From NCBI GenBank assembly GCA_012519845.1, contig JAAYPK010000036.1, positions 1 to 43,132 of the forward strand: 43,132 nt of DNA. Reading direction: 5' to 3'. The DNA comes from Clostridiales bacterium. Lineage in GTDB: Bacteria > Bacillota > Clostridia > Clostridiales > Clostridiaceae. Shown here in pieces: positions 36,829-40,644 of this stretch; within the stretch, counting starts at the first letter, position 1; each line of letters opens with the position of its first letter. The notes beneath the pieces are model-generated. The model did not search any database and was not told the DNA's origin. It was given only the letters and a program-made list of their open reading frames with translations. Made by a program: the position numbers and the translations under genes.

Positions 36829-37095
36829 CTCCATCTCTATAATTAATAGAGACGAAGTATATTCGCGGTTCCACTCTAATTGGATTTTTATTTAATCCCA
36901 CCTTAAGTTTCAGACACTTTGAATGTCTTATCACTATAACGGGTGATCCCGAAACACCATACTAACTTTCAAGTGTTAACTCCAAAGGGCACTTCACAAA
37001 ATCTTAGATGAAAATTTGCACCACCATTTTCTCTCTGTAATCCTTAATAATGCTACTTTCCTTTTTCACAGTTTTTAATTCATAGTAAAATACTA
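36829..37095 (-). promoter_or_regulatory. T-box leader, cysteine-specific, controlling cysK-cysE
   Basis: The minus strand shows the conserved T-box sequence AGAGTGGAACCGCG (36862-36875). An AGAGA-type element lies near 37032-37038, and a specifier region GTGAAGTGCCCTTTGGAG places codon TGC (Cys) in the usual position (about 36988-36990). The terminator hairpin (36829-36858; CTTCGTCTCTA with TAGAGATGGAG, then T8) follows. Uncharged tRNA-Cys should favour the antiterminator. The 407-bp gap before cysK is almost wholly filled by this element and its promoter. Confidence 0.93.
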
Positions 37096-37115
37096 AGATA
37101 TTCTTTTATACTTTT

Positions 37116-37143
37116 ATTATATTCTTTATCTAAATTTTGTCAA
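37116..37143 (-). promoter_or_regulatory. Consensus sigma-A promoter of the cysK T-box transcript
   Basis: The minus strand carries TTGACA (37138-37143), a 16-nt spacer and TATAAT (37116-37121), both hexamers perfect. Transcription should start near 37109, just before T-box stem I. Confidence 0.88.
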
Positions 37144-37178
37144 CATTTTTTTTATTATTACATTTATAAATATAAGAT

Positions 37179-38435
37179 TTATACACGCTTCTTCTTCTTC
37201 CATAAAGGATATAAATATTCATCTATAATATCATGTATTTGAACAATACCAACTAATTTGTCATTATCATCTACAACTGCAGTTAATAATAAATCATATT
37301 TTGCTGCTAATTCTATAGCTGAAGATATTGGATCATTATGCTTTACTGTAGATATATTATCTTCCATAATATCTTTTAATAAAGTTTCACCACTAGAAAA
37401 TAATAAATCCTTTAAAATCACAATACCCCTTACTTTATCCTCTTCATCAGTAGTATAAATATAATACATTACATCCTCATCAGGATCTAGTTCTTTTAAT
37501 ATTTCCCTAGTTTCTTCTACTGTAACATTAAGTCCTAAAGATATAAAATCTTTACTCATTATACTTCCTACTGTTTCATCCTCATATTTTAATAATTCTT
37601 CTACTTCTTCCGCATCATCTTTTTCAAGATTAATTAAGACTTTTTCTCGCTCTTCTCCATCAAGTTCATCTAGCAAATCTGCAATTTCATCATTATCCAT
37701 GTTTTCTAAAAGCTCAGCTGTCTTAGTTTCAGATAAATCCTTTATTATGCTCCCTTTGTATTCATCCTCTATTTCTTCAAAGGTGTCTGCTGCCAAATCT
37801 TCATCAAGAGATTCAAATAATTTTTTTCTGGAATCTTCATCTAAATCTTCTAAAATATCTGCAATATCAGCGGGATGTAGTGTTTTTAATTTCTTATAAG
37901 AATTTGATACCTTAGTATTATTATTTAATAATTCAAATGATTCAATATCATCCCACATTAATACTTTATCTTCACACTTTTTCCCTAACATTCTAAAAAT
38001 AAGCTTTCCAAAGGAAGGTATTCCCATCCTCCTAAATCTTGCCAAAGAGCCAACTTCAACCGCAACAACTCTATATTCTCCTGCAATTTCAGTAATTCTA
38101 AGATCATTAACTCTTACTACTTGCTTTCCATTTATATCTACAATTTTTTTGTCAAGCAAATTGTGAGAAAGTAAATAAGTATAAGTTCTAGGAAGAATTT
38201 CCCTACTACCTTTAGACCTAATTATTATTCTGCCGTTGTCATTAAATACATTTATTATTCTAAACTCATAATTAAAAATTACTCCACCTTTTTTAACTTG
38301 ATATCCAATAGCTCTTGGATATCCTTCATCAGTGGTTACATAAATATCCTTTAATTCTCCTAATACATCTCCAAATTCATCATATATTTTCTTTCCCAAA
38401 ATATCTGTATATAGGAATACTGATAGTCTTTTCAT
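37179..38435 (-). CDS. Soluble PRC-barrel / MgtE_N / CBS protein
   Basis: A 418-aa acidic protein. Two PRC-barrel-like segments are at about 8-80 and 92-170. An MgtE N-terminal superhelical domain (about 182-285; LHPADIADILEDLDEDSRKKLFESLDED) contains the repeated leucine/acidic pattern. Two CBS domains follow (about 290-345 and 355-410; GSIMSKDFISL, VGIVQIHDIIDE). No membrane segment is present, so it has the Mg-sensing half of MgtE without the channel. It could be a Mg- or nucleotide-responsive regulator; the target is unknown. ATG 38435 lies just after AAGGAGG, which a leader structure can hide. Confidence 0.88.
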   Translation of the reverse strand: MKRLSVFLYTDILGKKIYDEFGDVLGELKDIYVTTDEGYPRAIGYQVKKGGVIFNYEFRIINVFNDNGRIIIRSKGSREILPRTYTYLLSHNLLDKKIVDINGKQVVRVNDLRITEIAGEYRVVAVEVGSLARFRRMGIPSFGKLIFRMLGKKCEDKVLMWDDIESFELLNNNTKVSNSYKKLKTLHPADIADILEDLDEDSRKKLFESLDEDLAADTFEEIEDEYKGSIIKDLSETKTAELLENMDNDEIADLLDELDGEEREKVLINLEKDDAEEVEELLKYEDETVGSIMSKDFISLGLNVTVEETREILKELDPDEDVMYYIYTTDEEDKVRGIVILKDLLFSSGETLLKDIMEDNISTVKHNDPISSAIELAAKYDLLLTAVVDDNDKLVGIVQIHDIIDEYLYPLWKKKKRV

Positions 38436-38441
38436 ATTATG

Positions 38442-38520
38442 CTTCCTCCTTGCTCTTCTAAAGAGGAAATCTAATTATATATATCTATGATATAAATAAT
38501 GTTGAATTTCCTCTTAGAAG
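38442..38520 (-). promoter_or_regulatory. Two-way RNA switch before the MgtE_N/CBS gene
   Basis: On the minus strand, the segment ATTTCCTCTTTAGAAG (38455-38470) can pair with CTTCTAAGAGGAAAT (38506-38520) over 15 bp with one bulge. The same TTCCTCTTT (38460-38468) can instead pair with AAGGAGGAA (38443-38451), the ribosome site, over 9 bp with one G-U and an 8-nt loop. The two pairings exclude each other. The first leaves the ribosome site free and the second hides it. Confidence 0.65.
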
Positions 38521-38565
38521 ATTATTCAGTTTTGGTTTTTCCATATTATGAGGTCCTTCATCCAT
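38485..38565 (-). CDS. 26-aa leader peptide upstream of the MgtE_N/CBS gene
   Basis: A short frame begins with ATG 38565, 6 nt after AAGGTGGTG, a good ribosome site, and ends at TAG. The peptide starts MDEGPHNMEKPK and has acidic and proline residues near its N-terminus. Codons 16-20 form the upstream arm of the two-way hairpin, so translation would disrupt that pairing. It lies 49 bp before the main gene. Whether it is translated is not shown; the ribosome site and the overlap with the structure support it. In enteric bacteria the mgtA leader peptide also begins with acidic and proline residues; that comparison is an inference, not homology. Confidence 0.55.
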   Translation of the reverse strand: MDEGPHNMEKPKLNNLLRGNSTLFIS

Positions 38566-38635
38566 TACTTACACCACCTTTTTATTTTTTTCATTTTAAT
38601 TGGTTAATATTAATACAATAATATATTCTCATTAA

Positions 38636-38661
38636 AATAGCTGACCATTATGTCAGCTATT
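38636..38661 (-). promoter_or_regulatory. Stem-loop at the 5' end of the MgtE_N/CBS transcript
   Basis: The inverted repeat AATAGCTGAC/GTCAGCTATT (38636-38661) has a 6-nt loop and TTTT at the edge on the minus strand. It lies just past the predicted start of transcription, so it may be an early attenuator or an RNA stabiliser. A plus-strand terminator is unlikely because no plus gene precedes it. Confidence 0.55.
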
Positions 38662-38673
38662 ACTTCTATATAT

Positions 38674-38701
38674 ATTATAGTATATGAAAATGAAATGTGA
38701 A
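38674..38701 (-). promoter_or_regulatory. Promoter of the MgtE_N/CBS gene
   Basis: The minus strand has TTCACA (38696-38701), a 16-nt spacer and TATAAT (38674-38679). It would give a leader of about 230 nt carrying the stem-loop, the small frame and the switch. It is divergent from the YgiQ promoter. Confidence 0.65.
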
Positions 38702-38716
38702 ACTTTTTTTTGTTAT

Positions 38717-38745
38717 TTGTAAAGTATTTTTTACTGTGCTAAGAT
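38717..38745 (+). promoter_or_regulatory. Promoter of the YgiQ-family gene
   Basis: TTGTAA (38717-38722), a 17-nt spacer and TAAGAT (38740-38745) lie about 37 bp before the ATG. Confidence 0.65.
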
Positions 38746-38781
38746 TAATACACAATATTATTTTGAATTGGAGTTTATACA

Positions 38782-40644
38782 ATGAAATTAGCCAAAGACT
38801 TTTTACCTATTAGTAAAGATGATTTAAAAAAAAGAAATATTAATCAACTTGATTTTATTATTGTAACTGGGGATGCTTATGTAGACCATCCTTCTTTTGG
38901 TACTGCAATTATAGGAAGAACCTTAGAGTCTCAGGGTTTTACAGTTGGTATTATTCCTCAACCCAATTATAGAAGCAAAGATGACTTTATGAAATTAGGT
39001 GTTCCTAAATACGCCTTTCTTGTTAACTCTGGTAACATTGACTCAATGGTAAATCACTATACAGCTGCCAAAAAAAGAAGACATGATGATTTATACTCTC
39101 CAGGCGGAAAATCTGGATACAGACCTGATAGAGCTGTAATTGTATATTGTAATAGAATAAGAGAGGCCTTTAAAAATATTCCAATTGTAATTGGGGGAAT
39201 AGAAGCTAGTTTAAGACGTTTTGCTCACTACGATTATTGGGATAATAAAGTTAGACGAAGTATATTATTAGATTCAAAAGCAGATTTACTTATGTATGGA
39301 ATGGGAGAAAAGAGTATAATACAGCTTGCTGAACTATTTAAATATGGCTCTAAAATTGAAAACATCCAAAGTATTAGAGGCACTTGCTATATTACACATG
39401 ATATTTCAAAACTAAAGGATTATATTGAAGTTCCTTCCTTTGAAGAAGTTTCAACTAATAAAAAAGCTTACGGAGAAGCATATAAAATTGAATATTATGA
39501 GCAAGACCCTATTATTGGAAAAGGTATATATCAAAAACATAATGATAGATATTTAGTTCAAAATCCTCCTCAGTTACCACTTAGTAATGAAGAAATGGAT
39601 TTTACATATGATTTACCTTTTAAAAGAACTTATCATCCTATATATGAATCTCAAGGTGGAATTCCAGCTATAAAAGAAGTTAAGTTTTCTATTACAAGTC
39701 ATAGAGGGTGTTATGGATCATGTTCTTTCTGTGCACTTACTTTTCATCAAGGAAGAACCATTCAGACAAGAGATAGTGATTCAATTGTTGAAGAAGCAAA
39801 GCTTCTAACTACCTTACCAGATTTCAAAGGCTATATCCATGATATTGGAGGGCCTACTGCAAATTTTAGGCATCGTGCTTGTAATAAGCAAATTGAACAT
39901 GGTACATGTAAAACTAAGCAATGTATGTTCCCTAGTCCTTGTAAAAATCTTATTATAGATCATAAAGAATATTTATCAGTATTGAAAAGAGTTAGAAATA
40001 TTAAAGGAATAAAAAAAGTCTTTATTAGATCTGGAATAAGATATGATTATTTAATATATGACAAAGATGAAAGTTTCTTTAAAGAGCTTTGTGAACACCA
40101 TATAAGTGGTCAATTAAAAGTAGCGCCAGAACATGTTTCTCCTAAAGTCCTAATGCAGATGGGTAAACCTACAAGAAATGTTTATGATAAATTTGTAAAT
40201 AAATATTTTGAAATAAATAAAAAGATAGGAAAAAAACAATTTTTAGTTCCTTATCTTATGTCCTCCCATCCAGGTTCTGATTTAAATGCTGCAATAGAGC
40301 TTGCTTTATATGTAAAGAAAATGGGCTATACTCCTGAGCAGGTCCAAGATTTTTATCCAACACCTGGAAGCTTATCTACAACCATTTATTACATTGGGTT
40401 TAATCCATTAACTGGTGAAAAAGTATATACGCCAAAAACTCAAGAAGAAAAAAATATGCAAAGAGCTTTGATTCAATTTTCAGTACCTAAAAATTATGAT
40501 TTAGTTAAGAAAGCTTTAATTAAAGCTCACAGAGAAGATTTGATTGGTAATTCAAAAGATTGTTTAATTCCTTATAATAAACCTAATACAAATTATAATA
40601 ATAGGAAAAAAAATACTGCTAAAAAGAGCAAAAAGAAACATTAA
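38782..40644 (+). CDS. YgiQ-family radical SAM protein
   Basis: A protein of 620 aa. The N-terminal region (about 22-190; [54 protein letters not shown]) precedes the radical SAM core with CxxxCxxC at C310, C314 and C317 ([11 protein letters not shown]). The DUF3362-type C-terminus ([34 protein letters not shown]) ends in a lysine-rich tail. The reaction is unknown. ATG 38782 follows GGAG at 8 nt. It is one of only two plus-strand genes here and is divergent from the MgtE_N/CBS gene. Confidence 0.93.

Follow-up and report, generated by a model that had tools for sequence, protein, structure and literature searches.

A leader frame as a candidate magnesium switch

We consider it fairly likely that the short frame upstream of a MgtE_N/CBS gene in the window, i.e., the whole 43,132-nucleotide stretch of DNA analysed here, is a translation-aborting leader, working as a switch that is based on the ribosome and probably responds to low magnesium. 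Computation established the parts of the proposed switch and how they are conserved, its fold states, the peptide's acidic start, and the tie to M-box genes.

The controlled gene lies on the minus strand at 37179..38435 and encodes a 418 aa protein with a PRC-barrel, a MgtE_N domain, and two CBS stretches (Pfam PF05239, PF03448, and PF00571, each above cut-off). The Pfam scan thus describes a MgtE_N/CBS protein with no MgtE transport domain, and its magnesium-sensor-type domain suggests a role in magnesium balance. A MgtE-cytoplasmic-domain gene of this general kind has been noted beside Nramp-related magnesium transporters, where the available text suggests regulation of transport or metal chaperoning (PMC4072509); by analogy, the controlled gene may share that role.

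The 26-codon frame with a good ribosome site that the first-pass annotation placed ahead of this gene is indeed present at 38485..38565 on the minus strand (ATG start, MDEGPHNMEKPKLNNLLRGNSTLFIS; sequence and ortholog comparison). Its ribosome site, AAGGUGGUGU, occupies 38571..38580 (minus strand; SD-like letters also in ortholog leaders), its stop falls 49 nt upstream of the controlled gene's ATG (38435), and its peptide starts M-D-E-G-P, with acidic residues at Asp2-Glu3. Further upstream on the minus strand, a consensus scan found a promoter-like TTCACA-16-TATAAT at 38674..38701 (11/12 matches, which alone is no evidence of function). Just 3' of the likely transcript start, predicted to lie near 38667, an inverted repeat at 38636..38661 (minus strand) forms a short hairpin, AATAGCUGAC...GUCAGCUAUU, which could be an mRNA-end stabiliser or an early terminator. 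By eye, hairpins with U-rich tails stand at the same place in several ortholog leaders, their sequence differing between species. The upstream regions of many orthologs (L003, L006, L010, L025, and others) carry TTGCCTTTT ahead of TATAAT-like letters, perhaps as a shared promoter element. Downstream of the MgtE_N/CBS gene, a T-box leader (138 bits; 36845-37078, minus strand) precedes the cysK-like gene that comes next, which accordingly is under separate control.

A known Rfam element was dropped as a candidate, since no Rfam 15 family matched the leader at gathering score in the window or at 10 of the 64 ortholog loci described below, where the only matches were T-box and TPP elements, none over the leader, along with a few weak sub-threshold ones. 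The M-box aptamer (RF00380) likewise had no match in the window leader. An amino-acid attenuator of the trp/his type was also rejected: the window leader peptide has no one-amino-acid codon run, and no terminator-like site was found on the minus strand of 37000-39000.

Rival pairings within the leader

One segment of the leader had been proposed in the first-pass annotation to have two rival partners, the leader codons or the gene's own ribosome site, and folding recovered both pairings. The segment, arm 3, is a linker at 38454..38471 (minus strand). In the fold of 38530-38400 it (38471-38454) pairs with arm 2 (38521-38505, i.e., 38505..38521 on the minus strand, from the end of codon 15 to the start of codon 21), with a z of -3.81 and 0/200 shuffles as good. 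When 38580-38400 is folded to minimum energy (z -3.37; 1/200 shuffles as good), positions 38469-38460 of arm 3 instead form 10 pairs with AAGGAGGAAG (38451-38442), which is the controlled gene's ribosome site and is referred to here as arm 4 (38442..38451, minus strand; sequence, fold, and footprint model). The first pairing would leave the gene on, and the second would turn it off.

Two further helices go beyond the earlier description. In whole-leader folds, P1 joins the leader's ribosome site and AUG (38563..38577, minus strand) to the distal codons of the leader frame (38487..38501, minus strand), both strands being placed by folding and a 27-leader pairing count. P2 joins arm 1, the CCUC of codons 5-6 (38553-38550, i.e., 38550..38553, minus strand; from the fold, with weaker support), to GAGG at 38513-38510 inside arm 2, so that arm 2 can partner either arm 1 or arm 3. 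The arm-2:arm-3 helix and P1/P2 are mutually exclusive. Folding and pair swaps are thus consistent with mutually exclusive stems, 1:2 plus 3:4 against 2:3, that would control the gene's ribosome site.

Conservation of the frame and its stems

The controlled protein was matched in 66/68 genomes of the genus, and the ortholog set comprised 64 proteins, one per genome, each the best match and at least 61% identical to the window protein. In the leaders of these homologous genes, the frame and the arm-2:arm-3 stem were each found in 64/64. The ATG is invariant, codon 2 is always acidic, and codon 5 is always Pro; SD-like letters precede the leader ATG in every case, as judged by eye and from column counts, though the letters themselves vary. 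Ortholog peptides begin with M[ED]x[GVA]P; their frames are 15-39 codons long, with stops lying 31-141 nt upstream of the gene. The start pattern was also matched in 57/57 named relatives, many of which are the same genomes again. At positions 2-7, two acidic residues are present in 28/64 ortholog peptides and one in 36/64 (e.g., MEGVPQ). Codon 2 is GAG in 59/64, which in an AT-rich genome argues for a constraint at the RNA level as well, and CC is invariant at nt 13-14. The distal peptide is out of frame between species (L024 versus L028); a distal frame that is not kept is compatible with a sensor that reads the frame's start.

In 64/64 ortholog folds, all of them cut upstream of the gene's ribosome site, a stem of at least 10 pairs joins the leader's distal half to the stretch preceding that site; in L056 and L063 the stem was absent when the folded fragment held the gene's own ribosome site. 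In these two and in L053, L058, and L060 the gene start had been set a few codons too far downstream, an earlier ATG being visible. Compensatory changes had been anticipated at both rival pairings, and they were borne out at one. The arm-2:arm-3 energy averaged -17.7 kcal/mol for a leader's own arms versus -10.8 when arms were swapped between species, and the own pairing was better than the median swap in 59/64. For arm 3 with the gene's SD, own (-10.1) and swapped (-9.7) energies were close and the own pairing exceeded the median swap in 34/64, i.e., there was no co-variation. This second pairing was nevertheless stronger than shuffled arms in 64/64, which may be a simple consequence of an anti-SD-like arm.

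RNAalifold gave nothing useful on the 64-leader MAFFT alignment, where P1 was not found, and on a 27-leader alignment (A1) it returned only four pairs, joining the leader ribosome site to codon 5, again without P1. For this reason, P1 was taken from single-sequence folds and counted on A1 (27/64 leaders). P1 and P2 together formed standard pairs in 80.3% of cells versus 46-50% when slid, a comparison that favours P1 somewhat because P1 was drawn from the counted sequences themselves. Among these 27 leaders there were 39 double-change cells, P1 alone was paired in 84.3% of cells, and 0/500 shuffles reached the pairing score or the covariation score; by this count, P1 covaries. Of the five covariation measures, one does not stand out: the number of pairs altered on both sides was 6, versus a shuffle mean of 5.4, and was matched by 251/500 shuffles. 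Most P1 letters vary across the 27 leaders, and the G of the AUG is kept when its partner changes, G-C becoming G-U in 11/27. Over all 64 leaders, the own P1 strands scored above the median swap in 49. P2 was paired in 70.4% of cells of the 27 leaders, with rows out of register, and the putative stem 1:2 is the least supported of the leader stems.

Ribosome position and the gene's ribosome site

We modelled a ribosome as a 30-nt footprint blocked at successive codons of the leader, and computed the probability that the gene's ribosome site is unpaired. In the window leader this probability was 0.30 with no ribosome, 0.70 with a ribosome at codon 1, 0.87 at codon 5, and 0.83 at codon 8, falling to 0.28 at codon 11 and to 0.00 at codons 14-23. 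The mean over 64 leaders was 0.17 with no ribosome; 0.38, 0.38, and 0.33 at codons 1, 5, and 8; 0.20 at codon 11; and 0.11-0.13 at codons 14-23. A codon-5 ribosome gave higher opening than no ribosome in 61/64 leaders and higher opening than a codon-17 ribosome in 59/64. The opening was partial, with a codon-5 ribosome giving a probability above 0.5 in 23/64. The model performed poorly on low-scoring M-box leaders, those of mgtA type included, where codon 5 was above no ribosome in 11/24 and above codon 17 in 17/24.

These values bear on the first-pass annotation's claim that the ribosome's position in the leader controls the gene's site. The mutually exclusive hairpins stood, as did the hiding of the site once the ribosome is at codon 14 or beyond. 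The other half of the claim, that a leader left untranslated keeps the gene on, is not supported: without a ribosome the site is predicted to be mostly hidden (0.30 in the window, mean 0.17 over 64 leaders), because P1 and P2 hold arm 2, and it opens with a ribosome at codons 1-8. Under the footprint model, then, a ribosome that starts the leader and soon fails would switch the gene on, and the gene would be off if the leader were either left untranslated or read to its end.

The proposed switch would work as follows. In the resting RNA, P1 and P2 (arm 1 with arm 2) would form and arm 3 would lie on the gene's ribosome site, keeping the gene off. A ribosome starting the leader would open P1 and P2. 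Were it to slow or drop off early, over roughly codons 1-8 (M-D-E-G-P), arm 2 would be free for arm 3 and the gene's site would be exposed; were it to pass about codon 11-14, it would cover arm 2, arm 3 would return to the gene's site, and the gene would be off again. The acidic start would serve as the destabilising signal, one that would be stronger at low magnesium. Leader translation, ribosome drop-off, and magnesium as the signal are the parts of this scheme that we infer. Published destabilising starts, in the available text, have two or more acidic residues (PMC11282234), and drop-off may therefore be weak in the 36/64 orthologs with a single one.

Acidic frames behind M-box riboswitches

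The first-pass annotation tied the acidic/proline start to magnesium, and this tie is backed by M-box leaders and by orthologs of the controlled gene in other genera. A covariance model of the leader (R1), built from 27 leaders, recovers all 64 orthologs; in whole genomes it also gave weaker matches directly before mgtE genes (E 5.7e-4, 0.0022, 0.0028, and up), and the MgtE transport domain is present in the gene behind the E 5.7e-4 match. No match to a strict text pattern for the leader's start was found in L073-L129, where the covariance model did match (several weakly, E up to 5). An M-box was found upstream of 10/20 mgtE loci and of 15/19 loci of 36%-identical paralogs of the controlled gene.

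Across the genus, M-boxes are present in 45/68 genomes, with 58 matches listed. We parsed 49 of these 58, the others being L152 (gene off the contig), three paralog matches, four matches without a fetched locus, and one below the cut-off. When the upstream ORF (uORF) was chosen without bias, by best ribosome site, 48/49 leaders had a strong-site uORF between M-box and gene, and 44 of these were acidic at codon 2. The four strong, non-acidic picks (L138-L140 and L223) are nested ATGs that were preferred to a GTG frame with VDD or VES at its start. The one leader without a strong uORF, L236 (G001:C119:60670-60820), is a 70-bit M-box match with, by eye, a phosphoesterase-like frame downstream, and perhaps its M-box is false or decayed. 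The three unparsed paralog leaders have uORFs starting MDSDPY, MGGDPY, and MDGDPY, of which MGGDPY is not acidic at codon 2. As a control, TPP-riboswitch leaders of the same genus had a strong-site uORF in 1/30, not acidic; among the 22 control leaders with any uORF, one was acidic at codon 2, with a weak site.

Among the loci fetched, out of a longer list, from other genera of the family, 21/22 parsed M-box leaders had a strong uORF, 19 of them acidic. At the class level, where M-boxes were found in only 32/148 genomes, 29/30 leaders were parsed, with 17 strong uORFs, 12 acidic; outside the family but within the class, the counts were 14/26 strong and 9 acidic. Among these leaders, a strong acidic uORF is absent from those of f7, f53, f20, and f31 and from some in f21 and f23, and those of f18, f32, and f38 have strong uORFs without an acid at codon 2 (MSD, MVAD, and MNAG). 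The genes behind an M-box and uORF include mgtE, CorA, Mg P-type ATPase-type, and Nramp-type genes, kin of the PRC/MgtE_N/CBS gene, and an ABC-type permease, with one or two of each scanned.

Codon 2 was counted in 46 M-box uORFs that had been picked for being acidic there (46/49): it is GAT in 20, GAA in 16, GAC in 9, and GAG in 1, and the frames start with ATG, GTG, or TTG. The use of all four acidic codons and three start codons indicates that in this set conservation is of the amino acid and not of its codon. Lys and Arg are absent from residues 2-5 in 46 M-box and 63 ortholog peptides, all distinct. Among 381 gene starts, 38% lack Lys/Arg at residues 2-5 and 12% are acidic at codon 2; these starts are a better background than a 14-item short-ORF control, which contains nested pieces of leader frames. 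The uORF module lies downstream of the M-box, after a run of five or more T in 41/45.

Several other leaders deserve mention. An M-box leader of an ABC-type permease gene (L144 and L151; G064:C80 and G062:C40) has very short, very acidic uORFs, MDAEEGGSS and MDTEEGGSY, and genes similar to this permease in L283 and L285 have uORFs MSIEDGDNY and VVTDTEDGDNY; the permease is possibly an unrecognised magnesium-linked transporter. Five mgtE-like leaders without an M-box match (L087, L088, L089, L091, and L092) have uORFs starting MDDIPL or MDDVPL, and make up a second gene family that has the uORF with no M-box found. A low-scoring M-box group (L156, L158, L219, L226, L229, L231, L234, L235, and others), consisting of Mg P-type ATPase genes where scanned, has AGTAGT after the acidic start (ESSK, GSSR, ESSR), a common stretch that suggests a further RNA or peptide constraint.

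As for the controlled gene itself, fifteen orthologs in other genera of the same family (49-58% identity) are preceded by an M-box together with an acidic uORF, e.g., MEAGPHSTKLKLNIRH (L267) and MESGPYGGRSNLKRKLN (L270). In the window's genus, none of the 58 M-box matches lies within 5 kb of the 64 ortholog places. There the uORF may have been kept and the M-box lost, or the M-box may never have been there. Overall, the link to magnesium is strong but indirect.

Alternative explanations

The layout of the leader, an aptamer-like P1-P2 followed by what could pass for an expression platform, would also suit a new riboswitch in which P1-P2 and the apical A-rich loop bind a ligand or metal and the small frame is incidental or secondary. 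Nucleotide conservation exceeds coding need in the manner such an aptamer would predict (GAG at codon 2 in 59/64, CC at nt 13-14 in all), and AAAAYUNAAU-like apical letters are kept despite frame shifts there in some species. We nonetheless regard an aptamer as unlikely, given that the start codon and SD-like letters are retained throughout the 64 orthologs while the SD letters drift, that M-box uORFs preserve the amino acid through four acidic codons and three start codons, that most P1 letters vary, and that no Rfam family falls on the leader. A stalling frame at the same place that senses something else, such as proline/EF-P supply through Pro5 or a ribosome-targeting drug as in ermC, seems a little less probable still. 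Pro5 is present in 64/64 orthologs and the layout of stems 1:2 plus 3:4 against 2:3 is also that of ermC, yet Pro occurs at residues 3-6 in only 12/46 M-box uORFs, the window peptide has no single-codon runs, and the M-box relatives are magnesium genes.

Plain translational coupling, in which passing leader ribosomes merely open the hairpins and no signal is involved, strikes us as very improbable and was dropped. With ortholog stops 31-141 nt before the gene, re-initiation is conceivable, but coupling would favour ribosomes near the stop, the footprint model hides the gene's site with a ribosome at codons 14-23, and coupling leaves the acidic start unexplained. The translation-aborting leader frame thus remains our preferred reading.

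Wider reading and comparison with known systems

Taken more broadly, the same observations would describe a second, ribosome-based magnesium sensor across Clostridiaceae and parts of Clostridia, in which most magnesium genes (those of mgtE, Mg P-type ATPase, corA, Nramp, and MgtE_N/CBS type and the ABC-type permease) have an acidic-start uORF with a four-arm switch after their M-box, and the window's gene has one with no M-box. On this view, bacteria in general would use ribosome drop-off as a signal of magnesium, and Firmicutes would have evolved it separately and stacked it on a riboswitch; we give this broader reading an even chance. Magnesium sensing via ribosome instability has so far been described for a few enteric genes. 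Should the clostridial leaders behave as their sequences suggest, the device would be widespread in a phylum other than the enteric one and would act on top of the M-box riboswitch; finding such a uORF would then help to track down magnesium genes whose role is unknown, the ABC-type permease above being one example. The leaders also make it possible to test whether cell magnesium in Gram-positive bacteria is reported by the ribosome itself and not by a ligand-binding RNA.

In ermC-type attenuation, a four-arm layout is likewise used, and a ribosome held early in the leader by a drug frees the gene's site; unlike in ermC, nothing in the clostridial leader points to a drug. The M-box (ykoK) riboswitch (RF00380) is related to the window leader in that, in this genus, a uORF of the kind seen in the window separates its aptamer from the gene. 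The window leader has no aptamer, and the uORF module is a separate downstream layer.

The first-pass annotation knew of no described class that matches, which is wrong as regards mechanism, for mgtQ of the Salmonella mgtCBRU operon has the same layout and acidic codons (PMC8092293). As in mgtQ, a short frame with an acidic codon 2 precedes a magnesium gene under translational control, and stems 1:2 plus 3:4 alternate with 2:3, stem 3:4 hiding the gene's ribosome site. In the available text on mgtQ, leader translation is required, region 1 is covered, stem 2:3 forms, and Asp2 and Glu5 promote the effect (PMC8092293). In contrast with what is described there, the clostridial element belongs to a different phylum, is a 5' leader where mgtQ is intergenic, has ortholog frames of 15-39 codons versus 8 in mgtQ, covers the leader's own ribosome site with P1, has M-box relatives that carry the uORF behind a riboswitch, and in the window controls a MgtE_N/CBS protein with no MgtE transport domain. 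MgtL of enteric mgtA also opens a magnesium-gene leader frame with early acidic residues and proline (EPDP), and drop-off occurs there at low magnesium; as described in the available text, MgtL acts via Rho-dependent termination, whereas the clostridial leader would hide or free the gene's ribosome site (PMC11282234).

The M-box of Mycobacterium tuberculosis with uORF2 (rv1805A) is similar in having a conserved small frame after the M-box, with a conserved N-terminal proline. That M-box, however, controls translation of uORF2 itself, and the available text describes the arrangement as mycobacteria-specific and mentions no acidic-start or drop-off role (PMC12810186). Among open PubMed Central full texts, where subscription papers are largely absent, we found no description of acidic-start leader frames of magnesium genes in Firmicutes; the literature on such leaders consists, as far as the available text covers it, of enteric mgtL, mgtQ, and corA and the mycobacterial M-box with its conserved uORF (PMC12810186). 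The kind of mechanism, a translation-aborting leader frame, is already known, and it is the breadth of its occurrence and its stacking on a riboswitch that are unusual.
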